A stretch of DNA of 64,000 nt from Plumapathes pennacea (Eukaryota; Cnidaria; Anthozoa; Antipatharia; Myriopathidae), in assembly GCA_964036295.1 (NCBI GenBank), contig OZ038468.1:5328501-5392500 (forward strand), given 5' to 3'. The translations under genes were made by a program, and so were the position numbers. Below are positions 5,107-63,410 of this stretch, one piece after another. Below the pieces are notes generated by a model that searched no databases, was not told the origin of the DNA, and saw only the letters and a list, made by a program, of their open reading frames with translations. Position 1 is the stretch's first letter. The number at the start of each line of letters is the position of its first letter.

Positions 5107-5140
5107 ACTGACGTTTCGAGCACTAGCCCTTCGTCAGAGT
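5107..5140 (-). ncRNA. Hammerhead ribozyme motif in Penelope-like element
   Basis: On the minus strand the core CUGACGA (complement of 5131-5137) is followed by a GGGC..GCUC stem II with a UAGU loop, then GAAA (complement of 5114-5117) and CGU C. Predicted cleavage falls after the C at 5110. Stem III would be the palindrome ACGU without a loop, so it must pair between two copies. Stem I shows three pairs (AGU with ACU). The weak point is an extra A at the start of stem II. Hammerheads with loopless stem III are known in Penelope-like elements. Confidence 0.6.
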
Positions 5141-5237: not shown

Positions 5238-5759
5238 TTAGAAAATATGGTCAAAGGTTACGGAGCTATGAGAGAGAGAACCGCTCGTTGATTCCTGCGG
5301 GAGATACAGTAAGGTACCAATTTTGAAAATCAGGCGCTGTTCTGTGCACTTGTGGGATTCGGTGTTGCCTTGGTGAAGAGATAAACTGAAAATGGTCATG
5401 TTGTGGGAATGACCAGGTTGATTAAAATGACGAGCTACTGGTTTGGAGATGTCCTGGCTGTTGTTTTTCACATCCAAAAGATGTTTGCGGAAATGATCTC
5501 CCAACCTCCGTCCTGTTTTGCCGATATAAAGCTGGCTGCAGCTGGTGCACTGTATGCAGTAGATGACATGGCAGGAAGTGCAGTCAAAATGATCGGTGAT
5601 TTGGGTGGAGTTCTTAGGGCCGGAAATTGAATTGGTGTTTGTGATGAATGGACCTGTTTCATCTGTAATTTTGGGGTTTGGAAAATGAAGCCTACCTTCA
5701 CATATAAACCTATTTTCACCCTCAGAAATGCTTAACATTTCCCCAAATAACTGAGGCAT
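5238..5759 (-). pseudogene. Penelope-type GIY-YIG endonuclease domain
   Basis: The 173-residue frame has the paired Cys block CTSCHVIYCIQCTSC followed by YIGKTGRRLGDHFRKHLLDV. This is the GIY-YIG nuclease signature of Penelope-like elements, in which a Cys-rich motif precedes the nuclease core. The conserved Arg (GRRLGDHFRKH) and a downstream His-rich stretch (VARHFNQPGHSHNM) are present. The domain would nick target DNA to prime reverse transcription in the nucleus. The frame is open to its stop but lacks the RT domain that should precede it, so it is a remnant. Confidence 0.75.
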
Positions 5760-6466
5760 TGCAAATTTTCTGTATTCATGGCACTGGAGTCAATTTTGTC
5801 TGCCTTTGCTTTATGACAGGTACCTATTTTTTAATAGCATATTTTATGTTTTAATAATTATTGGTTGTTTTGTCTGTCAATCAGCATTCTGCCTGGCCCA
5901 TGGGTGCTTACAGTTTTTTATTTAGGTTTTAGCACCTAATCTTTAATGGCGGGATAATAATATATCACTAGGTGTTATTAGAGCTGGAAACCACGAACCA
6001 TTATAAGTGTGGTTTTCCTCTTTTTCATGTGACAGGTAGCACCCTGTGGTATCAAAGAGTAGCTGGTCAACCTAGCCGGGTGAGGTCGGCCCACACAGTT
6101 TGAATGAACGTTTGAATAATTGTCACTAGGTGAGGGGCCGTGGGGATTCAAATTGACACCAACGTTTTTCCTGGTCCATTTATAACTGTCCGATGATCAG
6201 AAATTGAAGTTGACTAGCTTTTGCTGGCATTTTCGCATCGAGAAATTGCTCTTATTGTTCTATTCTGTGCCGGAATTGGATGGTGTTTAAGCAGTGATTT
6301 TGGGGAGAAATCAGTGATTATGTTCAAGTGAGTTGGGAATTCTAGACTGTTGGCTTCCTGCCTTTTTCTTTTTTAGTACATACACAATCACCACAACCAT
6401 TAATCCCTAAATCAGCACCAAATCACCTCGAAAGTCAACATAAGCGGCAAGTAAGGACTCTGTTAT
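5760..6466. other. Unassigned sequence
   Basis: No ORF or repeat structure that I can name. A short phrase near 6037 (gtggtatcaaagagtagct) is echoed near 8945 beyond the piggyBac element, too short to interpret. Confidence 0.4.
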
Positions 6467-6930: not shown

Positions 6931-8574
6931 TCACTGCATGTGGAAAGGCTCAAAGCAGCCAACGCAGAGAGTAACATCACACAAAGCACAAGCCCAGCTT
7001 GACCTGTGCCTTTGGCCGATTGATGCACAATAAGCGCATCGATTTGTCGGCACTCGGGTCGGGAAATGCGACATTCCGTCCCTGACTTCGATGCCAACAT
7101 CTCGTCTCCTCTTGCGACAACTGTAATTTCCGACCCAAATGGTGATAAGTTCGAGGCGAAATTTCAGTTGTGTTGTAGTTGGATGGTTTGGCGAAAGCTG
7201 GCGTAGAATAAATGCATTCACCAGAGCAGTCTCCAAGAAAAAAAAGGCCAAATAGCGGTACCAGCGACGAGATTTTATAGGAATCCTATAGTCCCCTCTC
7301 TTCTGGTCGGTGTAGTCTACTCCACCCATGTGTTTGTTGTACGATACAACACATGGGGGCGCATTTACTTCTTGCATTCTGCCATCTTTTGCCTTTCTGG
7401 TGACTGTGTGGTTGCCAGTGGGTTGGCAGTTGGTTGTCAAAAAGTTCACCTTTTTCTTGTCCTGCCAAGAACAGGCGGTGACGCCACTGCGTTGCATGGT
7501 AAGTGATTCTCCGCGGCAAAGCTTTGCGTTCTTCAACTCAAGCAGAAATCCTTTCCTGTTGGGATGCGTCGTCGCCGTTGCGTAAATACTGTCATTCAGG
7601 AGGGATTTCATCAGCCGAAAACTGGAGAAAAAATTGTCAAAATACAGGTGGTATCCACCATTGACAAGATCTCGCGATAGATCTGTAACCACTCGATCCC
7701 CATGGCCTTGTTCCTGTCCTTGCTGTGGACGGCCAGTGTAGACTTGGAACCGGGAGACGAAGTGGGTTTGGGAGTCGGCACGCAACCAAACTTTGATCCC
7801 TTGCTTGGTTGGCTTCATAGGCATATATTGCTTGAAAGACAAGCGTCCCTTGAACTTGACAAGACCTTCGTTGATAGCACTCTCACGGTTTGGCTTGTAT
7901 TCTGCGGCGAACGTCTCGGACAATCTCGAGATCAGTGGTCGAATATGGTGAAGCTTGTCATGATCTCGGTGCTCATGTGGAACAGCTGTCAAGGCATCGT
8001 TGAAGTGGAGATATTGACCTATTTTCAGGTATCGATTTCTGGGCATAATGTCCTGAATTTTCTTTACTCCCAACAGCTTGTCCTTTGACCAGTAGTGGCG
8101 TTCTGATGGCAGTGTTTTGATGCCTTGAAACAGGTGTATCGCCAAGTACGCTCTGATGTCAGCGCTGTTCATGGGTTCCCAGTCGCGGTCGTTGCCTGCT
8201 CGTTGTTGTTTTTGTTGAGCGTTTCGATTTGTCTCTCTTACAATCAAATCAAACAGATCATCAGGAAATACTAATTTGGCGAATTCGGCTGCATTCGCTT
8301 CGGCTGGGAGGATAGTTGCCGGTCCAGTAGCTCTGTCGAAGGGAGTCACGTTCACGTTGTGAAGATCGCGTTGCCATTCATCGTCTTCCTCCACTTCTTC
8401 TTCGTCTTCATCGCTAGATTCACTGCCAGAATCATCTCCAACGGAAATATCACTTTCCCCAGACGCTTCTCGGTCACATTCTGGTTCTAATCTAGCAATA
8501 TCTTCCCTTGTAAACCCCAAAAACTCTTCTTCACTATCGCTGCTATCAAACAAGTTTCCACCCAACGCCGCCAT
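6931..8574 (-). CDS. piggyBac transposase (PGBD-like), D-to-N at catalytic site
   Basis: An uninterrupted 547-residue frame starts at an ATG and has an acidic N-terminus (residues 10-67), then the DDE_Tnp_1_7 core. Core landmarks are FKGRLSFKQYMPMKPTKQGIK (near 241-261), YFDNFF with Asp313, and MGGVDYTDQ with Asp420 and Asp423. A C-terminal cross-brace zinc finger follows (C513, C516, C529, C532, C537, C540, H545). Length is normal for the family. The first catalytic Asp, expected in the IDEG motif, is Asn235 (INEG; codon AAC at 7872-7870). The enzyme would cut and paste DNA at TTAA in the nucleus; with Asn235 it is probably inactive for strand transfer. It could alternatively be kept as a DNA-binding protein. 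Confidence 0.92.
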   Translation of the reverse strand: MAALGGNLFDSSDSEEEFLGFTREDIARLEPECDREASGESDISVGDDSGSESSDEDEEEVEEDDEWQRDLHNVNVTPFDRATGPATILPAEANAAEFAKLVFPDDLFDLIVRETNRNAQQKQQRAGNDRDWEPMNSADIRAYLAIHLFQGIKTLPSERHYWSKDKLLGVKKIQDIMPRNRYLKIGQYLHFNDALTAVPHEHRDHDKLHHIRPLISRLSETFAAEYKPNRESAINEGLVKFKGRLSFKQYMPMKPTKQGIKVWLRADSQTHFVSRFQVYTGRPQQGQEQGHGDRVVTDLSRDLVNGGYHLYFDNFFSSFRLMKSLLNDSIYATATTHPNRKGFLLELKNAKLCRGESLTMQRSGVTACSWQDKKKVNFLTTNCQPTGNHTVTRKAKDGRMQEVNAPPCVVSYNKHMGGVDYTDQKRGDYRIPIKSRRWYRYLAFFFLETALVNAFILRQLSPNHPTTTQLKFRLELITIWVGNYSCRKRRRDVGIEVRDGMSHFPTRVPTNRCAYCASIGQRHRSSWACALCDVTLCVGCFEPFHMQ

Positions 8575-13850: not shown

Positions 13851-16080
13851 CATACAGCCCCTCAATTGTAGTAACTCTACTTAGGCCTACATATGTATGT
13901 GAGGTATTGCTCTTCTAGTGTCAAAGTTGACAACAATGCTAGTCTCAGTATCTCCTTGTGATCTGTGTATTGTTTTTGCAGCTGCAGGGTGCAATGGAAA
14001 CTGTTTTCTGACTACCTGTGCAGTTCTATTTCTACCTACTGCAAATTTAATAGTTTAAGGCATAATTGGAGTCCATGTAGCTTCAATACCTTGCACATAT
14101 AGGTTTCTGTTTTCATGGCGAGTTTTTTCTCCAACATGAGGATGGTCAAACTGTACACATATGATTCCAGATGGTTTATCACTTTGATGTAGTTTTATCC
14201 TCTTAATGACGTTACCAGCACCATTTGTCATGCCATCTTCAGTTCGCACATTTATGGCTATTTCTGTTCTTTCTCCTTCTGCCAGCTGAAGGTTGGAAAT
14301 TATTTGTTTTGTTTTCCTGGGGTCATGTGGTATCTGCTTCATGGTTTTATCTTTAAGCTTTGCAGAGTTGGCTCCTACAACACTATCTTGTGCTTTGATG
14401 GTATACTTGTCACCACATGCCGCATGGTGGACTATTATTGAACTCATTAACCTTGATGTTTTGAATGAACAAGTGAGGTATATGTATCGGGTAGTTAACA
14501 TGTATCTGTCATGTCTTCTCATATGCTTCTTTCCTTGATTTTCAGAATATCACCTTGGGTATGTTTACCTTCTCGTAATCTGTAATTTCAGCAAACACTT
14601 CATTTTCCTTTTGCCTCATAATCTCTTGAAGCTCAAACATTTTGAAATGTTTTTTGTCACAGATTAGGAGCGAGAATTGCATATTCTGAGTTGTCCATGT
14701 TTTTAAATATGTACCCATCCATAACAGGTTGAAGTTAAAATAAATCACCAATTGCAATTATACTAACACCACCAAAGTCTTCTTTTGCTGCCTTTGATAT
14801 CTTTCAGTATATTGTTGATCTGTACATTAAACATGGTATTGCCAACCATTGAAATTTCATCAAGGAAAATTAGTTTTACACCTCCTAGTTGAGTTCTGAG
14901 AGTATTTGGTCTGCTTGAATCAAGAGGTTTGTAATTCTTAAGAGACTGGCATGCTGGTATTGCCAGAGAGCTGTGTATAGTATTACCCTTGATATGGTAA
15001 GCAGCTTTTCCAGTTGGGGCTAGCAGTGATACTTTGACTTCATGGAAGTCATCACCAGCTCTAGTGTTGTAATACTTCAGTGCAGCCTGATATAGTGCTT
15101 TTGTTACATGTGATTTACCCACCCCTGCTTCTTCACTCAAAAAGCAGTGGAATGGTTCATCTGATGTTTTAATGAGATGCAAGATATGATAGAAGAATTC
15201 CTTTTGCTCTTTGTTTAACATTTGCACAATTTGTCTGTACTCATGGTCTTGTAACTCATTTAATATAAGTTTGTCACTATTTGAGGCAGTGGAAGGAATT
15301 CCAATGTCCAAATCATAGCCTTCATTGAAATCAGGGTGCAAGTCTTGCATGCCCTCAGCATTATCTTGGTATTCCATGTTCTGTGTAACCGGTGCTATCA
15401 GGTCATAATGATCACCAGACTCTTCAATATCATTCAAGTGTTCTTGGATGTCATTAAGGTCTTCATCACAAACTGCATATAGTTTCATTTGTTCATCTAT
15501 CATATCTTTCAGAAGAAAGTAGTGTTCTTGATATGAAGAATAATTACCAATCAAGTCAGTTTCTTCATTTCTCCATGGGGTGAACAGCATGATCAGTTCA
15601 CGGTAATGCTTCTCTGGATCTACTTGTTTCTTAAAGTGAACACTTCTAATAATTCTAGCTTTTGATCGTTTCTTGTTCTTTGGAGGTTCACAGCTCAGTT
15701 CATCATAAGCATCATCATCATTTTTTTCATCAACAGCTGTTTCTACTGGCAGATCATCAATATCAACTTGATAGGGCTTCTTTAGATATGGTTTCCCAGT
15801 AGAGTCATACCATGCTGCCCAGTCTGCAAGTGTCACATGTTCAAGGCTTAAGTGACGCTTTGTGTACCTCTTTAACAGCCCACTAGTGTAAATTTCCTCA
15901 CAATCATCTTCCATTTCTTGGATGTCATTTATGGACTTCAAAAGTTGAACTCTCTGTTCAGGAGGTGATGTATTAATGAATATAACTTGATGAGATGATT
16001 TTCTCATTGGTAGCTGTAATACGATATAGACAGCTTCTTGTGCACTGATTTCTACATTAAGAAATTTATTGCCAATGTCT
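13851..16080 (-). pseudogene. Helentron PIF1-type helicase
   Basis: The main frame (14763-16007) contains Walker A EEAGVGKSHVTKAL (Lys298, Ser299) and Walker B LIFLDEISM (Asp383, Glu384), plus the LLAPTGKAAY motif. Downstream pieces in other frames continue the family: MFELQEIMRQK (14600s), AINVRTEDGMTNGAGN (14250s), and after 14050 the motif-VI area (TIHRSQGDTE and VGLSRVTTIEG). The helicase would unwind DNA during rolling-circle transposition. At least two frameshifts fall between 14757 and 14040, and a stop near 14055, so it cannot be made intact. The GG normally before AGVGKS is EE here. Confidence 0.85.
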
Positions 16081-16945
16081 CTTGTTGTTTTATGGTAGAA
16101 TTTCCTTTTCTAGCTTCATCACATACAGTTCGCAAAAGTTCACTCATTACTTTCTGTGCTTTAGAGATATGTGATGCAATGTACGTAGCACATGCATAAA
16201 CATCTAAAACAAACTATATGTCCATGTTTGCTCTCCATGCACCAAGACAAGCAGTATTGTAATTATTGATTCTCAACTCATTTGGCTGTCTCTTTAAAAA
16301 TATTGTTGGAGTATTAAGATGTGATCTCACAGCAAGCAGATAATTTTCTTCCGTTACTTTCAACTTTACCTGTAACTGGTTAAATGATATATTTTAACCT
16401 TTCATGTCATTTAATTGTTTCTTGATAGATTTCCAAGTATCTTTGTAACATTTTAATTCACTTTTTTGAATATCACTATCAAGAGGATAGAGAATTTGTG
16501 TACAACTCATAGGTGGCTGTGGGTAATTAAAACGACATTCAGTTTTAGACTTTTTTTGACATGTGTGTGAATGCCTGTGGGTTTGGTTGTTTACAAGTTC
16601 AAGTAGTTCAGGTTTATTAGTTGGTTTTTCACAGCTAATTATTTTGTCAACAAATGCTATGACTTTATCATCACTATCAACACCAAATACTGGTGCATCT
16701 TCCAGCCATATCAACATATGGATATGAGGTGAACCTCTCTGCTGATACTCAACTCTGTAAAACCACTCTGCAATTTTGCCTAAAGGGGCAAGATTGCTTA
16801 TGAGAAATTTTTTTAGAAATTGACTTACTTGATAGTCAAAATGTCTTGCACATGTGACTGGATCACTTTGAATAAGCCTACACTTTTCCTGCCAGTTCAT
16901 ATTTTCTAGTTCAGTGTTATATTTTCTAGTTCAGTATTCTTTATT
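16081..16945 (-). pseudogene. Helentron Rep (HUH) domain
   Basis: The frame 16394-16900 has CARHFDYQVSQFLK and the HUH motif RGSPHIHMLIW (His59, His61), then the His/Cys-rich THRHSHTCQKKSKTEC region. Beyond a frameshift, about 16270-16140 reads AWRANMDI, a stop, then FVLDVYACATYIASHISKAQ, the tyrosine-bearing motif. The Rep would nick and ligate single strands at the transposon ends. A nonsense codon (TAG, plus-strand 16214-16216) sits just before the Tyr motif where the sister element has CAG. A 20-bp tandem duplication at 16899-16938 sits at the broken N-terminal junction. Confidence 0.85.
16899..16938. repeat. 20-bp tandem duplication in Helentron Rep
   Basis: atattttctagttcagtgtt is followed directly by a second copy with one mismatch. 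Being 20 bp it changes the reading frame. Confidence 0.9.
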
Positions 16946-16946
16946 A

Positions 16947-17954
16947 TCAAGAAGTTTCCCAAGTATTTTCAGGAGATGAGGCCACTGTGTTTCTGCTGAA
17001 GAGACTACAAAACAATGAGGCAGGACCCAACTGTCTGATCATTGCAAATATATCTTTCTTAGCCTTTTCAAAATATGGGGGTGAACCACGCAATGCTCGT
17101 AAAAACTTAAAACCCTCATTATGGTGAATTAATTTCTCCAGTGCTCCTGGGTTTTTCAACTCCCCTGCTTTCATTGTTCTGTTATTTCCTTTGCATTTCC
17201 TTAGGGCAACTTGAGATTTTCCCAGCATAATCTTCATTTGCAGCTTTTTTGTTTTAAAGAATATATTTTTCACACACATAGCGGCTCTTCGGTCTGAACG
17301 TCTTAATTCAGATTTACAAATGTCACTATAATGAACAGCTGCAAGCCTATTTTCACTATCAGGTCTTTTCTGGCCTAGGAATATGCCAGGATACGCTAGT
17401 TCTTCAGAATATTTATCTCTGAATACACTAAGGGGTGTGCTACCCTCAGCTGGTGCAACACTGAGAATGTGCTGACGCTCACTATCTTCCATGAAATCTT
17501 TGGCAGTTAACAAAGTATCAATAACACCAGCAGGTATTTCTGTCTCATCTTCACTCCACTCCTCTTCATTGTTTGTTTCTGTTGCACTGTCAACATTTGT
17601 ATCACAATCCATATCATTTGACTTGTCCTCTTGTTGTTCAATATTGCATTCATATATATTAGCATTATTGTCTGCCCAATTTTGATTCAACTTAATGCCC
17701 TCTTCTCTGTAGAGACTACTGTTACCCACAAGATAGTTGGCTGCTTCCAGTACTTTGTGTGGTCTAACATTTAAGGATAATGCTGCACTCTTATACTGTG
17801 ATCTTTTTAGGTTGACTTTGATTGTTCCAGTTTCATCTGGTAATCTGGGCAACATGCTTATACTATTTGTGACATTCACTGGTACATTTACATTATTCCC
17901 ACTGATTTTGAATTGCTTTCTTCTTGGAGCTTGCATGAGTTTTTGAAATGCCAA
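16947..17954 (-). pseudogene. Helentron N-terminal (Helitron-like N) region
   Basis: A 335-residue open frame matches the region before the Rep core in Helitron/Helentron proteins: YPGIFLGQKR, VHYSDICKSELRRSDRRAA, then FLRALRGSPPYFEKAKKD and FAMIRQLGPASLF. The first half (MLPRLPDETGTIKVNLKR) fits the DUF6570-like part. The function of this part is not well known; it precedes the HUH nuclease. The frame shifts near its end (after FCSLFS), where the expected sequence continues in another frame. Confidence 0.8.
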
Positions 17955-17975
17955 TCGAGGAGCAAGTAGTCTACA

Positions 17976-18676
17976 CTACAACTCATTTAGGTCAAAAAAT
18001 GCAGGTTTTGGTGGGAACTGCATTCCATTCGCAGCAGCACAAGGTGGAACTTTACTCTTTGCTAAGAAATGATGGCATGACCTACACAACCATTCCAAAT
18101 TATTCACACTTTTCTTATTTAGTAGATACTTGTCAATATCAGGATTAGAATGTCTCAGCGTTTCAGCAGGTTGCACACTGTGTTTATACCACAACTGGTC
18201 ACAGGAAGTGCATATGTACATTGGTCCTTTAGAAACAATATCATGAAACTTTGATATCAAGTTTTGTTGAGATGCTGATTCTGTTGAAGCTGAATATTAT
18301 GTTGCAATGCACTTTGTTCCAATCCGTTATCATCACCATCAGTAGCATTTAAATGAAAGTGCTCATTTTGAGCCTTCTTCTGTTTGGACTGTTTTGTGTT
18401 CCTATATTTCCTCATGTAAGCATTTTTCTTCTGTTTATCCTCAGTTTGCCGTTTTGTTTTTAAGTATTTCCTCATGTAAGCATTCCTTTCAGTATTTAAG
18501 GCATACATCTGGTTATTGTCAGCTTGCCGTTTTCTTTTCTTATATCCTCTCACGTAAGCGTTCCTCTTATCCTTAATTGCTGGGTGTGATTTATTTGTAA
18601 AGGCACTTTCCTTTATTTCAAGTGTATTTGAATCAAAGAATAATGGTACTGTTGACACAATGGTATTCATCCACAT
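17976..18676 (-). pseudogene. Helentron linker with NAYMRKY repeats and Cys pairs
   Basis: Two overlapping frames form this part. The first (18257-18676) carries three imperfect copies of the motif NAYxRxYxxxKR, each encoded by a DNA repeat with words like tttcctcatgtaagcatt near 18408, 18468 and 18545. The second (17976-18260) has GPMYICTSCDQLWYKHSV and LEWLCRSCHHFL, Cys pairs typical of the DUF6570 region. A frameshift near 18265 separates them. The basic repeats may bind nucleic acid. Confidence 0.7.
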
Positions 18677-19130
18677 GACCTAAACAAGTAACTCTTGGTT
18701 CCTGTATTGGACTTACTGCTTCTATCACATTAAACTCTGCAAAATGCTGATGTGATTCAACAATGTGTATTCGTAAATTCAGTTTGTCTGCAATAGCCTG
18801 TATCATGAGCCCATCAGTCCATGTTCCGTGTCTAGAGATATTAGCCAGATATTCCATCCAGGAATTATTGGTGTTACTTTTGATGAAACGTTTAGGATTT
18901 TCATTCAAGTACTCAATGCCAGCAGCTCGGATATCCAAGTGAAAATTTGAATCAGAATATAACTGATGTGAAAGAGCTTTAAAAAAACAGTCGCCTGCAC
19001 CACCAACATCAAGTGGTCTTAAACCCAGTTGATGTAACCTTAATCCCCAAACGGGGCTCAATATCGATTTGCATGTGTTCTTTGGTCCTTCTTGCCATAA
19101 GATTTGGCGTTGTTTCTCATTGAATGCATC
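18633..19130 (-). pseudogene. Helentron OTU cysteine protease domain
   Basis: The frame reads VGGAGDCFFKALSHQLY, containing the catalytic Cys (GDCFF), and ends with VDEYHC, which holds the catalytic His. OTU domains are deubiquitinase-like proteases carried at the N-terminus of many Helentrons. The frame is open upstream to a splice acceptor at 19131-19132. Right after the His motif a small indel near 18660 shifts the frame. The active-site residues themselves look intact. Confidence 0.8.
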
Positions 19131-27947: not shown

Positions 27948-28500
27948 TCACTCGGAAAAATTATCCCTTCGGAGGTTGTTTTTGAAATCCTTCAGCGATG
28001 GCGCTGTTCTGACGTGCATTGGTAGGGCGTTCCACACAGCCGCTTCACTGAAACTAAAACTTCTTTTACCGTACTTGGTATGAGGTAGCAGCAGGTAGTC
28101 CGGGGTTTGGTTATGCAACGTTTTGTACATCATGGATTTATCAAATGTGCGGATGACTTAATTTTTTCCAGCCTAAGTTCTGAAAAAGTTCATCTGCATT
28201 GCTAGCGCGATTTTGGAGTTTTTGAAGTTTCTCGGAAAAGCTTTTGGCACAGTTTCCCCAGACTACACTGCAGTAGTCGAAGTGAGGCTGGACAAGTGCA
28301 TTATAGGCTGTAAGTAATGTTTCATGAGGAACAAAGTGACGTATGCGTTTGATTGCACCGATGCCAGAAGCGATTGTTTGGGCATTAATTCTATTTAAAT
28401 CCTTATTGATATGCTCATTTATATCACCTATGTCATTACTGGCTAAAGTTATGCTTGTGTTATCTGCATACATCCTTGGTTGGAAGTGCAATAAACGGTT
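27948..28500 (-). pseudogene. LINE reverse transcriptase, 3' part (split by retrozyme array)
   Basis: The frame 28141-28491 starts just after the retrozyme insertion with PRMYADNTSITLAS, the RT active-site block, where the usual YADD is YADN (codon AAC at 28461-28459). It continues through INAQTIASGIGAIKRIRHFV, NALVQPHFDYCSVVWGNC and LQKLQNRASN. After a frameshift, 28133-27948 reads MYKTLHNQTPDYLLLPHTKY and FSFSEAAVWNALPMHVRTA, the usual LINE tail. The frame continues on the far side of the insertion (29200-29235) as YINDLPNCLL. Confidence 0.8.
28489..28500. repeat. Left 12-bp target-site duplication of retrozyme array
   Basis: CAATAAACGGTT matches CAATAAACAGTT at 29200-29211 in 11 of 12 positions. 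Both copies are LINE RT coding sequence, and they bracket the hammerhead array exactly. Confidence 0.8.
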
Positions 28501-28526
28501 AAAATCGTAAGGCTATGTCATGCCAT

Positions 28527-28571
28527 GCCATGCTGACGAGGCCCAAAAAGGCTGAAACAGCTGCCCATGGC
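28527..28571 (+). ncRNA. Hammerhead ribozyme, array unit 1 (core change)
   Basis: Stem I GCCAUG/CAUGGC, core CUGACGA (28533-28539), stem II GGCC/GGCU around CAAAAA, GAAA (28554-28557). The expected U before the cleavage-site C is C (28564), which would disrupt the A15.1-U16.1 pair; stem II closes with a G-U wobble. Probably slow or inactive. Confidence 0.75.
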
Positions 28572-28774
28572 TGCTATTACTTGGGCTCACAATTTTTTTT
28601 GGTAGATCAAGGGGTAATGCCCGCTACCACTGTGGCCTTTGTGCCCTACTCTGTGGCTTCAACTTACCAGCACATTGTGCAGTATTCTGATTATGTAATT
28701 AAGCCACATCCAGAAGCCTTGCGATTTTACAGCTTGTTACCTGAATGTGGGAACCCAAGCCCAACTATAGCTAT

Positions 28775-28819
28775 GCCATGCTGACGAGGCCCAAAAAAGC
28801 CGAAACAGCTGTCCATGGC
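28775..28819 (+). ncRNA. Hammerhead ribozyme, array unit 2
   Basis: Stem I GCCAUG (28775-28780) pairs with CAUGGC (28814-28819). Core CUGACGA is at 28781-28787 and GAAA at 28802-28805. Stem II keeps three pairs with one C-A mismatch next to the loop. The palindrome ACAGCUGU supplies a loopless stem III. Cleavage is predicted after C28813. All core bases fit the consensus. Confidence 0.85.
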
Positions 28820-29025
28820 TGCTAATACTTGGGCTCACAATTTTTTTTTGGTAGATCAAGGGGGTAATGCCCACTACCACTGTGGCCTTTGTGCCCTAAT
28901 CTGTGGCTTCAACTTACCAGCACATTGTGCAGTATTCTGATTATGTAATTAAGCCACATCCCACAAGCCTTACGATTTTACAGCTTGTTACCTGAATGTG
29001 GGAACCTGAGCCCAAGTATAGCTAT

Positions 29026-29070
29026 GCCATGCTGACGAGGCCCAAAAAGGCCGAAACAGCTGTCCATGGC
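29026..29070 (+). ncRNA. Hammerhead ribozyme, array unit 3 (consensus match)
   Basis: Stem I GCCAUG/CAUGGC (29026-29031, 29065-29070), core CUGACGA (29032-29038), stem II GGCC-CAAAAA-GGCC (29039-29052), GAAA (29053-29056), stem III palindrome ACAGCUGU, cleavage after C29064. Stem I continues outward as GAGCCCAAGUA-UAGC against GCUAUUACUUGGGCUC with small internal loops. Every conserved hammerhead position is met. Confidence 0.88.
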
Positions 29071-29199
29071 TGCTATTACTTGGGCTCACAATTTTTGTTT
29101 TTTGTTTTGGTAGATCGAGGGTAATGCCCGCTACCACTGTGGCCTTTGTGCCCTAATCTGTGGCTTCAACTTACCAGCACATTGTGCAGTATTCTGATT

Positions 29200-29211
29200 C
29201 AATAAACAGTT
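29200..29211. repeat. Right 12-bp target-site duplication of retrozyme array
   Basis: CAATAAACAGTT is the partner of 28489-28500. On the minus strand it encodes part of NCLL in the LINE frame. Confidence 0.8.
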
Positions 29212-29290
29212 AGGTAAGTCGTTGATATAGATTTAAAAATTTGGTGCTCTTACAGCACAGATTGCTTCCTTGTTGCCACTCAGGTACAGC
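29200..29290 (-). pseudogene. LINE reverse transcriptase, part upstream of the insertion
   Basis: Minus-strand sequence reads QQGSNLC and, after a frame change, YINDLPNCLL, corresponding to the PQGS...LLYINDLP block that precedes YADD in LINE RTs. It joins the frame resumed at 28491 when the array and one target-site copy are ignored. Confidence 0.65.
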
Positions 29291-30648
29291 ACCTTCTCCA
29301 TTATATTATCCACACAGGCACTAGAATCCCCGTTCTCTTATGGAGAAAGCAGCCTCGGGGTTTCCTGTTGGTACATCTGCGCGAAAACGCTTAAAATCCA
29401 TCTTAGAAATATCGCGCAGCCATACCAACAAATGCATGTTGGCTGTGGGCAACAGCGTAGGTTTCAGGACCCGCAATTTTGGTTGGTGGTTGTCCTACGC
29501 GATCACGGACAACATCAAGCCAATTTGGAAAAGGAAATAACCACTCGTATGGTGAGAATGTCAAGAAGAGGCTTGGTTTTCCAAATTGGCGTAATGCGTC
29601 CAGGAGGAAAGAATGTTGCCATTTCCAGAATCCCATCGAAAAAGTTTTAGTGTCTAAAGAATGGTATGGAGAACAATTCTGCATTCGAGCAGTTTGTATT
29701 GCTCCAGTGACCGTCTTATACACCCATCTATCGTAGTGAAAATGGACTAACTCAAAACAGAGAGTAGTCTATAATTTCACTCAGCAACTTGACAAAGAAG
29801 GAGGACTTCGCACTTTGGCGGTGCTCGTGACCGGTGAAACTGGTATCACACCAGTTACGAAAAGGATAGAGGTGTGGCCAGAGAGCACATTCTATGCCAG
29901 GCATTTGAAAAATATCTAAACATTTCAAACTTTTTTCATTTGTGATACATTCCTCACGAAGGGAAACCATTTCGGAATATGCGCTTCCTTCTAAACGGAT
30001 AAGTCCATTGTAGATGCGTATCAGAATGTTTTTCCTGCCTACATCAGGAATAGCCAACAGATTTTCTTCAACAGTTTGAGGTGTAGGATAGAGAGTAAAC
30101 GCTACCATTTTGATTCGATAATCATGTTGGTGACATTTGTAAGGGCCAAGATCAATTACAAAAGGTCTTAGAGTATAGACATCCTCCAGAGGTAAGGTTT
30201 TTAAGAAATCAGGTACATTGCAAAACTTAGGTACAATGTACATCTCGGCACGACAAACGCAATTGCTAACACTTGGCTTATACCTTTGTTTAAAATTATA
30301 GGTCATTGTTTGCCGTTGTAACAAATTACAATTGGGACAATAGGCCCAAGAACAGAATTTCAACCAAAAAGTGAGGTCGTTTACTGTGGAGGTATAAGAG
30401 GGTGTTGTTATATTATCCTCAAGTGTACCATTGTAAGAATTGGAAAAATTCAAAAAAGTTCTTTCGCGCTGAGCAGCGTGGACATTTTCTGAGTGATAAG
30501 GCGTTCATTGGCTCCTAATGGGGCGATTACAGTTTTATAGTTGATACTCACAAATTCACTCATGCTCCACAAAATTTGGTGCTCTTACAGCACAGATTGC
30601 TTCCTTGTTGCCACTCAGGTACAGCACACTCAGGCACTAGAATCCCCG
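29235..30648. repeat. Direct repeats (~58 + 19 bp) flanking a Rep-like fragment
   Basis: aaaatttggtgctcttacag and the following bases through gtacagcac occur at 29235-29292 and 30571-30627. Each is followed, after a different spacer, by caggcactagaatccccgt (about 29315-29333 and 30630-30648). The repeats enclose the Rep-like pseudogene at 29403-30453. They could be a duplication made at insertion or by later recombination. Confidence 0.75.
29403..30453 (-). pseudogene. Rep-like protein family (FPFPxWL type), copy 2
   Basis: The frame 30453-29752 has VNDLTFWLKFCSWAYCPNCN (Cys-containing), CNVPDFLKTLPLEDVYTLRP, FQMPGIECALWPHLYPFRNW and LLSEIIDYSLF. The frame 29723-29403 continues MYKTVTGAIQTARMQNCSPY, LDTKTFSMGFWKWQHSFLLD, FGKPSLFLTFSPYEWLFPFP and ETYAVAHSQHAFVGM. 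It matches copy 1 at 20155-21767 block by block and is better preserved. The nuclease end of the protein is missing. I infer a Helitron-like Rep relative, but I cannot name the family. Confidence 0.55.
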
Positions 30649-55665: not shown

Positions 55666-56104
55666 ATACCTTGGCTTTTTTGCTTCGATAAATGATAGTA
55701 TTTATCGCCATTTGGAGGATGTTCAGTTCCATAAGAGCAGTTAAACCTAAAACCAAGGCAAGCAAAGTACATACAACTCTCATGTTTAGAGCAGCACAGA
55801 AAGATGAAAACAAAACATTTGAGCACAAACCGAGCTAGGTAGCCAAGCCAAATTTAACTAGTACCCAAGCCTCAACTCAGCGCAGTAGATAGAAAAGAAG
55901 GCGGGTGAAAGAGTTTATATGATGCCGGCCTAATTTGGAACCAGTACAGGTACAGAACTGTACCTGTGTTTCTGCAGGTACAAAACTTGTACAAATAGGC
56001 GGTACAAAATTCCTTCGGATAGAAGAGATCCGTGTAAATGCAAGGCCTATTTGGTACGATTTTGTACCGGATCCAAATTGATCCGGTACCGTGTAAACTT
56101 AGCC

Positions 56105-56900
56105 TAAGCTATTACTTTGTAGAGCACGATATCGAAATGCTTGACTAGTAGGAATTTTTAATGCTGAGTGAATTGTATTGCCAGAGATATTAAATGCTGC
56201 TTTCCTAGTTGGAGCAATTTTAACAACTTTGACATCGTCAGGTTTTTCCCAGGGATGCTGTTCAGATATTTTGTCAGTGCCATCATACAACGTTTTGGTG
56301 ACCAAACGTTTGCCCACGCCAGCACCACCACTCAGAAATACATTTAATGTTTGATCTTTTGTTTTTATCCAGTGAAAAACATGGTAGAAGAATTGTTTTT
56401 GTTCTTTGTTGAGGGACCGCATTGTTTCTTGATAACAGTCATCAGTCATATTGTTAGTTACCATTTCTTCAGAGCTATGATTTCTTGGATAAATACCAAG
56501 ATCATTGGCAAGGTCATATTCTTTGTGTTGCTTGTATTCTCCTGGATTGAAACAACCAAACGTCATGCTTACTGTGATTATATCAGACTGGTCTAGTTGG
56601 TTTTCATGTTGGGTGTATGGAGCACAGTGATCAAAGGCACTGTCAAGATCCTCTTGATCTTCTAGAGATGAAAATGCTTTTTCTATCTGTTCAGCATGAA
56701 GTTCAAACTGAGCCCGTTTAAGAACGATCATCTTTTCAAGCTGTTCAAATTTATCTTGAAAACTAACAGTTACCCAAAATATCTCTATTCTCATTTCTCC
56801 ATGGAATGTAAAGCATGATTTGCTCCCTAAAGTAGTTTTCTGGATCTTTTTGCTCGTGGCAAAGCAACAAGTTTAGGCTTCCAAATCATGTCTTCATATT
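56105..56900 (-). pseudogene. Helentron 2 helicase, N-terminal part
   Basis: The frame reads MRSLNKEQKQFFYHVFHWIK and FLSGGAGVGKRLVTKTLYDG, Walker A with Arg in place of the final Ser (GKR for GKS), then VVKIAPTRKAAFNISGNTIH where the family has PTGKAA. It is cut after IPTSQAFRYRAL by the Harbinger end. Two substitutions in nucleotide-binding motifs plus the truncation make it inactive. Confidence 0.8.
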
Positions 56901-56902
56901 TT

Positions 56903-58720
56903 CGTCTGGGTTACGAATCAGCACATGGTGATTGGGTTCACATTGTCACGTGATATGCGATGACGTAAGCTGATCGCGAACAACTTGAGATGCGGGAGAT
57001 TGAATTGCCTTTAAGACTTGTGTTTAAAAAGTTAGTGGCATCGCATCCAAATTCAACACCGTTTGGCTCTGTGGAACATGCATGGATGAACTGGATTTTA
57101 GGGAATGATTTGGTTTGCGTTCTTAAGTTCACCGGCGGAAGCTTTGAGAACAGCCACAAACAAATGTTTGATGGATTCGATTATTTGATGGATACTGCTA
57201 CGGGATTGCAAATAACTCTGTCACCGCTGATTATTTAGTCCCGATAGAACTTTCTGTGGTGACACGAAATACTTTGAGAAGATACTAGGCCGAAAACGGA
57301 CACCAAAGCTACGATGATTGTTTAGCCATAAACATTTTACACTGTACATGACATATATGTTGCCTCACATACTGTGGCTGTTTTGTACAGTTTTTTGCCG
57401 AAAATGTATCCTTTTGTGTGACGAAAATATATATCCTCGTAGCTCAAAACTCCACCAATGCGGCTTTGTGAGTATATTACATGTATCATGCTGCGAGCCT
57501 GTGCCGTCAAAATGTTTCTTCAATTTGATCATGTAGCCTATGTTTTGCAATGGTAACTGTATGCTACAAATGAAAAACACCTAAATAGTCCTGAGCATTG
57601 AGCTTGTTAGTCACAAATTGACTGAACACGCTGTGATAGAAAACCGGGAGAATATTGTACACAACTCTCGTGTTACATTCCCTGCTTTCAATTTTATATT
57701 TGTTACAGAGCGTGAATACCCGAAAGCCTAATAAATGAAACGCATTCAATAAAAAGAAAACAGATAAGTATTGAAGCAAAGGCTGGATCGGGATTAATCA
57801 TGGCCTCTGATTAGTAATAAGTGTTCAAAGTCAAACTGTCAAAATCGACTGCATAAATACAGTAAGTGTCAAAGTCACGCACAGGGTCATGCATTACTCT
57901 TTTCTTGCTCGCTGACCCTTTCACCCTTCAGCATAAAATGTAGTCTTTAACCTTGAAGCAAATCTATAAGTGTTGTATGAAAATTTATAACTTAATCAGG
58001 TTTCATTTGAGCAAGGTCTCAAAAACCAAGTTCTCTATGCTGTATATTTTTCTGGTGAGACTGAAGCTAGGTGGGTGTGGCAGCATCTTGGTTGGCAGCG
58101 ATGGATCACTGACACGTTTAACTCAACAACATTTAATTCCACATGGCGAACAGAGACAAACATACACACTCGGAAATAAATTTGTAAAACTTGTAGTAGA
58201 CTTTGTGAAAGTTTTAGGTAAAAACAGTTTGAAAAAGCAGTTACAGTTTGTCGTCCAGGTTTTGCCCCAAAATCCGCTTTAAACAGCGTCGTGTCAACAC
58301 ACTACAGTGCCATCTTGGAAAAAACCACAAGTTATCCCCACCACGTAATGCATGATGGGAAATGGTAAACCACTGAACACTTAAAATAGAAACGAATCGC
58401 AGCGAATCTGTTTTACAACATTCTAGCACAGTGGGGTACTCCGATATGTGAGCCATATGTAGGTATGTGCCGTATACATTTTTGAAGTTAGGTCTGAAAT
58501 AGGGTATTGAAAATCAAATATCTTTGTCTGAAATAGGCTAAGGGTTTTCAGGACTGGGTGGCACACAAGTACCCCCCTCCCCCCCTCCCCCTGGACTCAA
58601 AATATCTCTTGGGAGTCTCACTCTTGTCCCTACTTTTAATTTTAGTTTATTCTGGTCTCGACTCAACTCACGCCACGAGCTCACTGGCAAAGCAGTCTTG
58701 TTCTTTATTGAATCTGACAA
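56903..58720 (-). repeat. Dispersed repeat family, copy 2, inserted in Helentron 2
   Basis: This is the reverse-complement counterpart of 2415-4110, with a single copy of the part that is duplicated there. 57000-57860 is well conserved. 57990-58060 matches 2480-2560, and 58601-58690 matches 2415-2500 in inverse orientation; about 520 bp between them is extra, including C-rich DNA near 58575-58592. It separates Helentron linker sequence (58930 up) from helicase sequence (56900 down). Confidence 0.75.
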
Positions 58721-58724
58721 TTCT

Positions 58725-58929
58725 AATGATTTTTGGCCTTTTCCGTTTTTGTAAGATTATACCGCCAGGGAGTACATTTGTCTTTTTATAATAGTTTACT
58801 GGCAGTTCTTCATCCATAGTATTATCAAGTACTTCCTTTAAGTTAAATGAATCTAATGTGATTTAAAAGAACTTGCCTGTTTGGAAGATCATTTAAGTGG
58901 TATTTTACAATTTTAAAATGCAGACAAAT
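58725..58929. other. Unassigned sequence between repeat and Helentron 2
   Basis: No motif recognised; the Helentron frame becomes readable only above about 58930. Confidence 0.3.
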
Positions 58930-59233
58930 CAGCTAGGCACAATTATTGCAGTGATTTAGGTCGTCTTTGATACCTTTTTATTTGGTTATCTGATTCAATG
59001 TCATTAGAACTATCTGGAAGCTGCTATATCTTCTCAAGTGGTTTAAGTAGGAATGTCCCTTCATTTTCTGAGCTTCTATTGATTAATAAGAAATCACGAG
59101 ATCTCAGAGGAATTTGTAAAAGAAGGTAGAACGCTTCTTGTGCACTAATTTCTACATTGTTTAGAAAGTTGATGCCAATGTGCCGCACCTGATTTTTTGT
59201 CTTTGTTAATTTTCTGGCTTCTTCACAAGCTTT

Positions 59234-60109
59234 CTAAATGAGTTTAGTCATGCCCCTTTGACCTTTAGTAATGTATAAAAGAATGTACATTGCACAGGCA
59301 TACGGATCTAGCACATACTGTATGTCCATGTTGGCACGCCAAGCTTTTATTACATTTGTATTAAAATTATTTATTCTAATTTTAGAAGGTGACCTCTTTA
59401 GAAACAATGTGTCACGAGTTAAATTGGATCGTATAGCCTGAATATACTGATGTTCAGTTAGATTCAATTTTTGTAGAAATTCCTCAAATGTTATATCATC
59501 TCCAAGTTTCATTTGTTCAAGTAAAACTTCTGTTGGAATAATTTATTTAGTGTTGCTGCCACTCATTTGTGTCCTCTGTACTTTGTGCTAGTGTTGTTAA
59601 GATAATTGTTCTGGCCATGGAGGGGATAGGGAAGTTAAAACGACATACATTTCCGCCTCTTTTTTGCAAGTTTTTGCATGTCTGTGGGTTTGAAAGTTGA
59701 CAAAAGTTGTCATTTCTTTTGACGAATCATCTTTGCACGTGACATACTTGTCTACGAAGTGAGCAATTTCTTGTAAAGAGTTAACTCCATATTGTGGAGT
59801 GTCTTTAATCCGGAAGAGTGCATGAATGTGTGGATACTGAAATTCAAGTCGAGAAAACAAATCTGTAATTTCTCCTACAGGAGCCAAGTTGCTCTTTAAA
59901 AATTGCTTCATGAAGATCTGAACCATATGATCAAAATGTCTGGCACAGGTCACTGGGTCATTTTGACTCAGTTTATCTTTTTTCTGCCGAGACATTTCTT
60001 CAATCTCTGTCAGTATAACTTTTGTTGTCAACAAGTTTGCCAAGAATTGGAAGATGAGTCCATCTTGTTTCTGCTGCTGAAAATGAACAAAACCATGTTG
60101 GGTTGCCAA
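59234..60109 (-). pseudogene. Helentron 2 Rep (HUH) domain
   Basis: 59597-60109 reads NDPVTCARHFDHMVQIFMKQ and FQYPHIHALFRIKDTPQYGV. The HxH pair is kept, but the RGS usually just before PHIH is missing. THRHAKTCKKEAE follows. After a frameshift 59234-59512 reads NLTEHQYIQAIRSNLTRDTL, AWRANMDIQYVLDPYACAMY and ILLYITKGQRGMTKLI, with the Tyr motif. Compared with Helentron 1, the Gln before YVLD is intact here. Confidence 0.8.
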
Positions 60110-60720
60110 TTTGCCTTATCATAGCAAGTAGATCTTTTTTGCATTTTTCAAAATACGGAGGTGAACCTCGTAACCCTCTGTACCCTACGTCTATGTGTAT
60201 TAGTTCCTTAACTGCATAATCAGATTTGAAGTCCTTTGCAGTGAATTTTTTTCCTTTTGTTTTGCACTTTCCTAATGAAATTGAAGCAGTGCTCTGAATC
60301 TGTTTAATTTGTAATTTCTTCAGCTTACAAAAAATATTTGGAATTGATTTTGCTGCTCTTCTATCTTGCCGTGTTAATTCTGATTTTTGCAAATTGTGCT
60401 GTACTGTACAGGCACTGTTCTGTCTTTATTATCAGGCCTACGTTCACCACAATAAATCGTTGGAAATGATAAGAGTTAGAGTCTTTATCATAAAACATGT
60501 TTCCAGATGGGCGTTCTTCTGCTTCACACCATTTGTCATCATCATAACCTTTTTGATTAGCACTTCTGTTTAATTGAGAATTGGAGCTTGAAACATTCTT
60601 GTCACATTCATTTTCAATGGTACAATCAGGTGAATTTATGTTTGTTTCACTTGTTGGACATTTATCATTATTACTTTCCTCAGATGGTGACTTACTTTTT
60701 TGTTTCAAAAAATTCAGACC
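60000..60720 (-). pseudogene. Helentron 2 N-terminal region
   Basis: 60361-60708 is acidic and Asn/Ser-rich (NVSSSNSQLNRSANQKGYDD) and leads into the conserved end. 60000-60392 reads MQKSELTRQDRRAAKSIPNI, GLRGSPPYFEKCKKDLLAMI and WFCSFSAAETRW, which parallels Helentron 1 (KSELRRSDRRAA, ALRGSPPYFEKAKKD). Three frames are needed to read it, so it is broken. Confidence 0.75.
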
Positions 60721-61373
60721 ATTCTACAGAGTAAACTATTTTCTGTTCCAATGCTATTTGTTAGAGTATCCAGATGAATACCCTGTTCCTTGAACAGGAC
60801 ACTTGTTTCAACAAGATACCTTGCAGCATCTAAATCCTTTTGGGTCTAATAGTCTGGAAGTGATGGTAATGCTTGTTACTCATGTGTCTTTTCAATTTAA
60901 GGGGTACAATTTCAGCATCACTTATACACCGAGGCAAAACACTGACTGTAGTGTTCACATCTGCAGGTACATATACAACATTACCATGAAAACTGCCTTG
61001 ACCTCCTCTTGGCAGTTGACGGAGCTGCATAAATGGTATTCTTGGTGACACAAGTCTTTCTTCAAGTTCAATTCTAACACTGGTGGTTTAGGTGGGAATG
61101 TCATTTTATTTGCCTTTGCACAACTAGGCAACTTACCTCCTTTGATGTTTCGATGTCAAGTCCTAGAAATCCACTGAGTATTGTTCACACTTTTTTTCCT
61201 GATGATGCAAATTTTGACCAGTGCATCAAGATCTTAGTTGTATGAATGTTCATTACATGCGATAACACTAGATTTGTACCAAAGTTGATCACAACAAGTG
61301 CAAACATACTCAAGTCCACATTTAACATTTTCATGAAATCTCTCTATTAGGCCTTGTATGCTTTTGAATATCT
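60721..61373 (-). pseudogene. Helentron 2 decayed N-terminal sequence
   Basis: Parts such as RQLPRGGQGSFHGNVVYVPA, VLPRCISDAEIVPLKLKRHM (61051-60830) and the Cys pairs readable near 61330-61250 (VCTCCDQLWYKSS-like) correspond to the DUF6570-like portion of Helentron 1. Frameshifts are frequent. Confidence 0.55.
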
Positions 61374-62336
61374 TTACTGTTTGTTTTGCTTCTTCTGTTT
61401 TTCTTTTAATCTCACTAAGTGTTTCTTATCATTTTGTACTGCACCATGTATAGGATTGTGACAAGTATGACTTTGTACATGATTTGTCACCAGTGGAACA
61501 GTGGAGACAGTGAACTTCATCCAGGTGTCCAATGTACAGAATTCTTGTTTGGAAATTCCTGGGTTCAATTAAAGTGCGTTTGCAAAGTTTTGAGCATATT
61601 CTGTTATATAACTATCCACATTGAATGGATTTGCAACAGCTTGGATAATTAATGCATCAGCCCAAGTTCCATTTCTAGACATCATCTCAATGTAATTGCT
61701 CCAAGAATTTTCAGTGTTGTTTTCAGTAAACAATTCAGGATATGCACAAACGTACGAAATACCACATGCACGTACTGTAGCATAATGTTCAATTGTTCCC
61801 CACAATTGATGCGACACTGCAAAGAAAAAGCAGTTACTGTCTCCAGGTGCTGAGTGTTCTCTCAAACCCAGCCAATCGAACCTTTCACACAATGTTTGAG
61901 AAGAACTACGATATAATGCCAGAGGCCCAAGATTTTCTTCATTGTCTCCGGAAATACGGAGTCTATATTTATTGTGGTAAAATTCGTTATTTGCATCACC
62001 GATAAGAGTGTGCAAACCTATGGTATCCTTTTTATGTTTTCCATTTTGCCGTTGCTTACAAACATAAACATGCTTACGAACTTTGTCTTTTTCGGCACGT
62101 TTTGCTAAATGCATTGTGAAAGAGTAATTAGCACATTTCCTGCTATTTACGACAACAAAAACAGATGACTGGAAGAATTCTAGCAAAGTAATAACATACC
62201 CTACGTCGCACACGTTTGCTCTTTTGCAAAAGTCTTTGTAATTTGCGTAAAGGTATATGCGGCTGCTGGCTCTGTTCCGAGTAACCTTACCTTTACTAAT
62301 CCACGCAAAATAGTAACGCCACCGGCCATCAAGCAT
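61374..62336 (-). pseudogene. Helentron 2 OTU domain with 2A-like motif
   Basis: The 255-residue frame has a basic N-terminal part, then YRLRISGDNEENLGP (residues 124-138), which resembles a 2A ribosome-skipping motif except that NPGP is NLGP. The OTU start HSAPGDSNCFFFAVSHQLWG follows (Asp166, Cys169). The OTU end, with GHLDEVH, lies in a second frame near 61530, and KFTVSTVPLV in a third. A 2A signal would have released an upstream peptide from the protease-Rep polyprotein; Leu136 (codon at 61931-61929) should abolish it. Confidence 0.7.
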
Positions 62337-63410
62337 TTCAAGTTTAGATAATAGCTCAGTGTCTCAGTCTTTGAGCATCACCCCTTGTGGTCCAATACGA
62401 CAACCTAATTCCTCTGTGTCAACTTCGAGATGCATTACAGCTGTAGAAGCACCCTCGTTAACTGAGTGGTTTTCGCTTACGAAAGAGCACAATGGCTGCG
62501 TTTCATCTTTTTTTGTTCGTCCCAACATTCTCGCTCAATTGCGGTATGCTTTTGTCATCACAGTACAGTGAGTGCCCTACAACTGTAGGAACACTCAGGC
62601 TCAACAACAAACTTCAGATGCTTGACATCCATGATAAATCAGAAGAAACTACCTTTGACGAGTTTACCTGTTCGTCACACCCAATTTGCAATACCCAAAT
62701 TTGGATAGAACACAAAAGAACACATCTTTATATGGATTTCCATTGTGGACGCAGAGTGAATGGGGGACAAATCAATCCCATAAAGTCGCCTCTCCACGAA
62801 GTGGAGTGGGCGACCATAAAAAAGCCATACATGACACCAAAGGTCATGTATTTTGTCACGTTTGGAATGCACGCTTGTCGCGGTAGTTCGGACGTGTTGG
62901 TATTCACTCTGTACATAGTTGTGAAGCGTGCATGATTATTCGTGAGAAGGTACGGTATATATAAGGCTTGTTTCACAAGCAAGTGTCACTCGACGGCATC
63001 TCTCGTTTACCTTCCGTCAAATTTCTTTAGTTTGTTACAGTGTACAAGTTAATCATTATTGCCTTTGTTAAGAATTACTATTCTGTGCTAGATATCAATG
63101 GATATTGTATTAATCTTCATATATTGTTAAATAGCTACTGTTTCACTGCCCATTATATAGTAAGCCTGGCTATCAATAAACCAGATGCCCATTCCTGATT
63201 CTTGTATGTTTGATGGTAATTAGTGTCAAAATGATTTGTTCTCGTTTCACTGCAGAGTGATTAGAGAATAAAGTTGCTTAGAAATATTGTCAGCCCGACT
63301 GACAACAGTACTATATAGAATCTCGTGTGGAATTGTGTTTGTGTAAAAACTTTAATAACATTTGAGACAACAAGAGAAACAGAAAACAATCACACAACAT
63401 TGTCTTTGTA
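62337..63410. other. Region between Helentron 2 and terminal ORF; TATA-like box, hairpin
   Basis: A 147-residue plus ORF (62492-62935) is unrecognised. A hairpin at 62785-62814 (GTCGCC, CTCCAC, GAA loop, GTGGAG, GGCGAC) lies within it. A TATA-like tatatataagg is near 62955-62965, and AATAAA signals follow at about 63176 and 63268, which could make a short transcript. No function is evident. Confidence 0.35.

Follow-up and report, generated by a model that had tools for sequence, protein, structure and literature searches.

A hammerhead retrozyme with Penelope-like insertion scars in the genome of Plumapathes pennacea

The window analysed here is a 64,000-nt stretch of the Plumapathes pennacea genome (contig OZ038468.1, positions 5,328,501 to 5,392,500, forward strand). 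One receptor gene of this genome, in L076, places the host among the hexacoral cnidarians: its two best protein matches are 71–72% identical, one from Stylophora is 58% identical, and those from Oculina and Desmophyllum are 53–55% identical. Tandem Repeats Finder identifies within it an array at 28525–29199 with a period of 251 and 2.7 copies, which carries three hammerhead ribozyme (HHR) motifs. A sequence-only reading had set this element at 28501..29199; its right end holds, and the insertion proper occupies 28502–29199, flanked by target duplications. Units are numbered below from window position 28775 (unit position 1), with the ribozyme cut after position 39, and the window copy is L019. 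The features of the insertion are as follows.

28489..28501, no strand: left target-site duplication, CAATAAACGGTTA, identical to 29200–29212 at 12/13 bp
28500..28514, minus strand: inverted 5′ arm, TAAAATCGTAAGGCT, 15 nt, the exact reverse complement of the unit at 28966–28980
28522..29199, plus strand: direct array of the 251-nt unit, ~2.7 copies, with its 3′ end at start site 1 (unit position 168)
28527..28571, plus strand: hammerhead 1, 27.9 bits, under the gathering score of 34; degraded
28775..28819, plus strand: hammerhead 2, 37.3 bits; stem II of 3 bp; predicted cut after C28813
28814..29064, plus strand: 251-nt unit between two predicted cuts, as deduced from the HHR positions
28943..28980, plus strand: 38-nt optional tail (unit 169–206), as in the second unit, between the two 3′-end sites
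29007..29018, plus strand: distal stem I, 5′ side, a 12-nt complement of 29077–29088; a similar pairing appears in the unit fold
29026..29070, plus strand: hammerhead 3, 42.2 bits; intact core; predicted cut after C29064
29077..29088, plus strand: distal stem I, 3′ side, pairing with 29007–29018
29200..29212, no strand: right target-site duplication, CAATAAACAGTTA, pairing with 28489–28501

The sequence-only reading had overlooked the inverted arm. Its first 2 nt overlap the left target duplication, and since the arm is the reverse complement of 28966–28980, its outer edge lies at start site 2 (unit ~206). The array had been described as non-coding, in agreement with the 46.6% GC content of the insertion and its longest stop-free run of 93 codons. 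Fusion of the flanks at the target duplication gives a single continuous LINE-like frame (...YINDLPNRLLHFQPRMYADNTS...). The retrozyme landed in a decayed LINE (28200–28501 and 29213–29400, minus strand), which we take to be CR1-like from the motif ...HFDYCSVVWGNCAKS....

Other mobile elements are present in the window, all on the minus strand. An open 552-aa transposase frame at 6931–8589 matches DDE_Tnp_1_7 (E = 1.7e-80), is presumably of piggyBac type and is possibly a recent insertion. A 390-aa frame at 54529–55701 matches DDE_Tnp_4 (E = 1.2e-28), which we assume to mark a Harbinger-type element. Several long frames at 14763–19130 and 56099–62363 resemble, by eye, pieces of Helitron rep/helicase.

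The three hammerheads of the array, which start at 28527, 28775 and 29026, are all of type I, and their 248- and 251-nt spacing is as the sequence-only reading gave it. Two of the three exceed the gathering score of 34 of the Rfam model Hammerhead_1 (RF00163), hammerhead 3 with E = 2.1e-7 and hammerhead 2 with E = 8.6e-6 in a scan of the whole window; hammerhead 1 gives E = 2e-4 in a 1.1-kb scan. A core visible in all three motifs had been claimed. It is intact in hammerhead 3, but in hammerhead 1 the cleavage triplet reads GCC instead of GUC, and stem II begins with a G:U, its first pair having acquired a U. Because of these two defects, only the 28814..29064 unit is bounded by two plausible ribozymes. 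The residues predicted to be cut, C28813 and C29064, are those initially proposed. Stem I, in contrast, is longer than the 6 bp first assigned to it, being extended beyond an internal loop by a 12-nt perfect complement. Stem III, ACAGCUGU, is palindromic as stated, but on inspection of the letters its full closure within a single molecule is impossible: a monomer would form 2 bp and an AGCU tetraloop, and the full helix would form in a dimer only. By the same inspection, the HHR has an internal loop in stem I and a loop 2 of 6 nt, which might take part in the loop 1–loop 2 tertiary contact expected of a metazoan retrozyme. An energy model favours, for the 45-mers, a competing fold in which GCUG is paired with CAGC.

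Further copies were found when the genome (290 Mb in 24 contigs, of which 12, C1–C12, are large) was searched with the unit. With 40 of 362 candidates scored, the search gave at least 93 matches in at least 40 regions, every large contig having some, and arrays of up to 3 units occur among the 40 regions. A 23-nt motif from the unit, with two or fewer mismatches allowed, matched 183 + 185 = 368 times, and its reversed control 0 + 0 times. The dispersal of these short arrays and single partial units over C1–C12, together with their target duplications and fixed 3′ ends (below), refutes the idea of a satellite-like, immobile array, for which the tandem organisation itself might speak. A search of the genome with RF00163 gave at least 37 matches, at least 34 of them over the cut-off with 74 of 41234 candidates scored, and 11 of those 34 have a score equal to that of another repeat (described in the final paragraph). 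No hammerhead matches to RF00163 were found in 14 control genomes. The core and a 4-bp stem II are intact in 34/54 pattern-matched copies; the ribozymes of the other 20/54 inspected are not intact, some through truncation of the arm there. The loss of key residues in hammerhead 1 and the 20 defective copies would suit a chance likeness or a dead relic carried by an ordinary transposon, but given the matches over the cut-off, the clean control genomes and the 34 intact copies we regard this as very improbable.

The scars left by insertion were read in all 40 regions that the unit search gave. In 40/40 the 3′ end falls on either of two sites, separated by 38 nt, and not at the ribozyme cut (39): 18/40 end at ~168, after ...TATTCTGATT, and 22/40 at ~206, after ...ACGATTTTA. 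Aligned 3′ ends span 163–176 and 202–217; that of L020 aligns at 185, yet its target duplication puts it at ~167. L042 and L043 have a flank in common and represent one event, which leaves 39 independent insertions. Target duplications of 9–19 bp (median 13), with boundaries chosen by eye, flank 37/40 copies, with none at L025, L042 and L043; the assignments at L029, whose left copy runs into unit sequence, and at L047, which is of low complexity, are weak. The target motif is likewise weak, consisting of an AT-rich duplication with C before T at the boundary.

Many copies also carry, as in the window, an inverted 5′ arm. An arm counts as firm if it is 10 nt or longer and its outer edge falls on one of the two sites. 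Two arrangements are observed: 8 firm cases in which the arm edge is at ~206 (range 197–218) and the right end at 168, and 10 in which the arm edge is at ~168 (range 157–176) and the right end at 206.

Left 206/right 168: L019, L020, L021, L024, L034, L044, L052, L058
Left 168/right 206: L028, L032, L035, L038, L041, L050, L051, L053, L054, L056

The left and right ends therefore use opposite sites in 18/18 firm arms of the 40-region set. Three further arms of 7–9 nt (L022, L046 and L055) agree with this rule but are near chance length; among 3000 random flank 16-mers used as a control, the longest inverted match was 7–9 nt in 515 and 10 nt or more in 18. The inverted arms of L027 and L030 have outer edges at neither site (~75 and ~131), and 17/40 copies have no inverted arm. 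A test set, for which the predictions were fixed before the sequence was seen, comprised 12 places on C1, the first exact matches to the motif that lie beyond the 40 regions; with a tandem pair counted once and L079 and L083 being duplicates, it amounts to 11 loci. Seven of their right ends are at 168 (L077 ambiguous), three at 206 and one at neither (L081, ~180), and target duplications are present in 7/11 and absent in 4/11. All four scorable arms use the opposite site, L080, L086 and L087 with left 206/right 168 and L088 with left 168/right 206; the arm of L081 is unscorable because its right end lies at neither site. Pooled, 22/22 firm scorable arms are opposite, 11 in each arrangement (Fisher p = 2.8e-6).

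Target duplications of ~13 bp and 5′ inversions are also known with LINEs, and the window copy itself lies inside a LINE remnant, which together would allow a SINE-like element moved by a LINE, its inverted arms arising by ordinary twin priming. In twin priming, the inverted piece begins at variable internal positions. The arms observed here instead have their outer edge at a fixed, opposite site in 22/22 cases, L027 and L030 being the only arms at neither, and by eye there is no poly-A or short-repeat tail at any of the 40 right ends. Moreover, two alternative 3′ ends are a published trait of Penelope-like elements (PLEs; PMC11167929). We therefore disfavour the LINE and consider it an improbable mover.

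PLEs occur in the same genome, and a relic of one lies in the window.

5108..5137, minus strand: minimal hammerhead-like motif in the terminal repeat of the PLE relic; an exact pattern match, found in 0/100 shuffles
5238..5789, minus strand: PLE relic, endonuclease part; not part of the retrozyme, but a trace of PLE machinery in the genome

The relic has at least 150 genome matches, itself included, with 150 of 492 candidates scored. Its GIY-YIG similarity (E = 0.018) and that of the frame in its relative L066 (E = 2.5e-4) are both below the Pfam cut-off, L066 just below. Around such endonuclease matches 14 loci were sampled, from which 14 hammerhead-bearing ends at 12 loci could be aligned. 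The minimal PLE hammerheads were found by pattern; Rfam recognised none of them at E ≤ 1 in 8 loci. The ends, those of PLE family 1, again fall into two classes. Seven short ends lie at ...CACCAGTTT or within a few nt of it (L060, L063, L064 and L070, and the inverted ends of L066, L067 and L068), and six long ends run 56 nt further, to about ...GGTATTACATT (L065, L066, L067, L069, L071 and L072). The end of L061 is irregular, L067 and L071 have a flank in common, and a tail is present at the right end of L068 as well. The inverted arms of L066, L067 and L068 are thus of the short type, opposite to their tailed right ends, and L066 has a 13-bp target duplication, ATCCGTATGTAAA. A second PLE family (L073, L074 and a piece in L059) likewise shows a short end and one longer by 30 nt; L073 carries RVT_1 and GIY-YIG above cut-off, and L074 has a short right end, the tail on its inverted arm and a 10-bp target duplication. 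The short end lies 62 nt after the predicted cut in both families, judged from one locus each (L066 and L059), with sequences that differ. Two PLE families with minimal HHR-like motifs thus coexist with the retrozyme. Nucleotide comparison of the retrozyme with PLEs gave no similarity below E = 0.5 in L009–L018, and none at E ≤ 1 in L059–L072 or in L073–L076, which include PLE family 2.

In 3′ ends, inverted arms and duplications, the retrozyme scars match what the published passages considered here describe for PLEs. In vitro, an Anolis PLE protein in purified form was found to cut both target strands and extend them, with two neighbouring internal start sites that mark the limits of the tail seen in genomes (Frangieh et al., 2024; PMC11167929), and the PLE tail is found on one of the inverted terminal repeats, with target-site duplications (TSDs) of 8–10 bp where given (Arkhipova et al., 2013; PMC3846280). 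Like the Penelope/Poseidon-type PLEs of these accounts, the retrozyme has two adjacent start sites and an optional tail (30–40 bp in print, 38 nt here), signs that both strands are cut and extended to leave an inverted 5′ terminal repeat, short TSDs and partial tandems, and its HHR has a counterpart in the PLE terminal repeat (PMC11167929; PMC3846280). In contrast to PLEs, it is non-coding, with no RT or endonuclease, is 251 nt long and has a fuller HHR with a long stem I and an internal loop. Its start sites are 129 and 167 nt after the cut, compared with 62 and 118 in the L066 PLE and 62 and 92 in L059.

These insertion scars, as read from DNA, support PLEs as the mover of the retrozyme. It is highly probable, in our judgement, that this is a non-autonomous animal retrozyme inserted by PLE machinery, and we propose a self-cut, circularised RNA of ~251 nt as the template. 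That the enzyme was that of a PLE is inferred from likeness to the PLE reaction in print and to PLE copies in the same genome. In the proposed sequence of events, the retrozyme transcript would cut itself at its hammerheads, and the ~251-nt RNAs would be ligated into circles, as described for retrozymes of other species in the published account drawn on here (PMC7229834). A PLE protein would then capture the RNA. The later steps are read from the DNA. The target is cut on both strands with a stagger of ~13 nt, and the freed 3′ ends are extended by reverse transcription with internal starts in the RNA, at ~168 for one strand and at ~206 for its opposite. Copying passes the ribozyme cut site and may span more than one unit; one cDNA becomes the tandem array, and from the second comes the inverted 5′ arm. 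In the window copy, the left arm derives from site 206 and the right end from site 168. Several observations speak against this reading: the edges at neither site in L027, L030 and L081, the copies that have no target duplication or no inverted arm, the discordant alleles of L028 (below), the few direct arms that start close to the cut (below), the lack of nucleotide similarity between the retrozyme and the PLE loci compared, and the use of uncleaved RNA, with no need for the ribozyme, in the published PLE reaction (PMC11167929).

The subfamily structure of the retrozyme bears on the identity of the template. Two subfamilies differ at unit positions 18, 21, 107 and 125, and the direct and inverted arms of the same insertion have matching subfamily alleles in 14/15 informative loci, three of which (L041, L053 and L058) are scored from one position; activity of the two subfamilies in different periods would confound the test. 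Divergence within loci is 2.9% vs 4.3% between loci, and less than 1% of permutations are as low, yet the nearest neighbour lies in the own locus for only 23/54 and 14/26 segments. Subfamily alleles were used for template identity because distance alone gave so few own-locus neighbours. From the opposite-site use in 22/22 arms and the matching alleles in 14/15 loci, it may be argued that a single template molecule serves both strands. Specifically, a PLE protein dimer would hold one circular RNA, the two staggered 3′ ends of the cut target would each take a different one of its adjacent start sites, and rolling-circle target-primed reverse transcription would yield array and arm; we put this forward tentatively, at somewhat short of an even chance. 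L028 is a counter-example: its arms match at 107 and 125 but differ at 18 and 21, the loop II alleles. This difference suggests that the template was switched or that a single event involved two RNAs.

The direct arms read through the cut site in 39/40 cases, the exception being L054. None starts exactly at the cut, and 4/50 independent arms (L043, L049, L079 and L082) start within 6 nt of it, which is about chance level; a cut linear template would also yield such starts. Since direct arms cross the cut and near-cut starts are at chance level, the template was probably, in most cases, a circle or an uncleaved multimer. The sequence-only reading assumed spread through circular RNA; the DNA is consistent with a circle but also with an uncleaved multimer, and stop positions do not separate the two. 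PLE-type insertion from an uncleaved linear multimer, with the ribozyme not needed for insertion, would accord with an in vitro PLE reaction that, as published, used unprocessed RNA and in which ribozyme mutations were without effect (PMC11167929). Genomic arrays of up to 3 units would be available for such transcription. Against a multimer, the ribozymes have been kept, as the 34/54 copies with an intact core and a 4-bp stem II indicate, and the direct units within an array agree at the loop II positions 18 and 21 in 9/9 loci with several readable direct units. Furthermore, four whole-unit insertions begin and end near 168 (L021, L022, L023 and L025), as expected if a circle were copied back to the start, although copying of a multimer could likewise halt there if every unit carried a bound protein. 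On balance, we think insertion from a multimer rather unlikely, and prefer the circular template.

The assignment to animal retrozymes proposed from the sequence is upheld by the type I HHR, the ~250-bp non-coding tandem unit, its dispersal, TSDs of >4 bp and the HHR-bearing PLEs in the genome. Cervera and de la Pena (2020; PMC7229834) give the same traits for metazoan non-LTR retrozymes, citing type I HHRs, non-coding tandems of 170–400 bp, GC content <50%, TSDs >4 bp and coexisting PLEs, and record such elements from corals, jellyfish and sea anemones. The passages of that account considered here contain no description of the pair of fixed 3′ ends, of inverted arms or of the opposite-site rule, and an incomplete search of the retrozyme literature likewise found no description of two 3′ ends or inverted arms in retrozymes. 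Plant LTR retrozymes share with the window element an HHR-flanked non-coding unit that is thought to spread by circular RNA, and are described as having type III HHRs, LTRs, PBS/PPT and 4-bp TSDs (PMC7761336; PMC7229834). The window element, in contrast, has a type I HHR, TSDs of ~13 bp and no LTR arrangement; none was found in the 40 copies.

The interest here lies in the link to PLE integration. The enzyme that moves animal retrozymes is treated as an open question in the published work considered; one paper (PMC7229834) names PLEs ‘a strong candidate’, another (PMC8969392) mentions elements that ‘may rely on PLEs’, and PLEs are the candidate mover also in PMC7761336 and PMC11722881. The scars tie retrozymes to PLEs without a partner being named, and provide a fingerprint that can be scored in any retrozyme-bearing genome. 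With the two start sites placed to ~10 bases, the question is open to in vitro test. The scars further suggest a single RNA for the priming of both target strands, a step that is not resolved in the relevant passages of PMC11167929.

A second hammerhead, scoring 38.5 bits, is found in at least 11 places, where it lies within a different, longer dispersed repeat without long frames (six places fetched, L089–L094; e.g. L093:451–498). This score class was considered as a second retrozyme family and rejected, as a lone HHR inside a longer dispersed repeat that is not part of the retrozyme. Each of the six has a single HHR. Five of them are 97–99.7% identical along the entire 1051 bp, and L091 is ~94% identical with deletions; because five are near-identical throughout, the repeat is young and extends past the fetched stretch. 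A half-hammerhead beside the second hammerhead suggests a captured, shrunken retrozyme unit.
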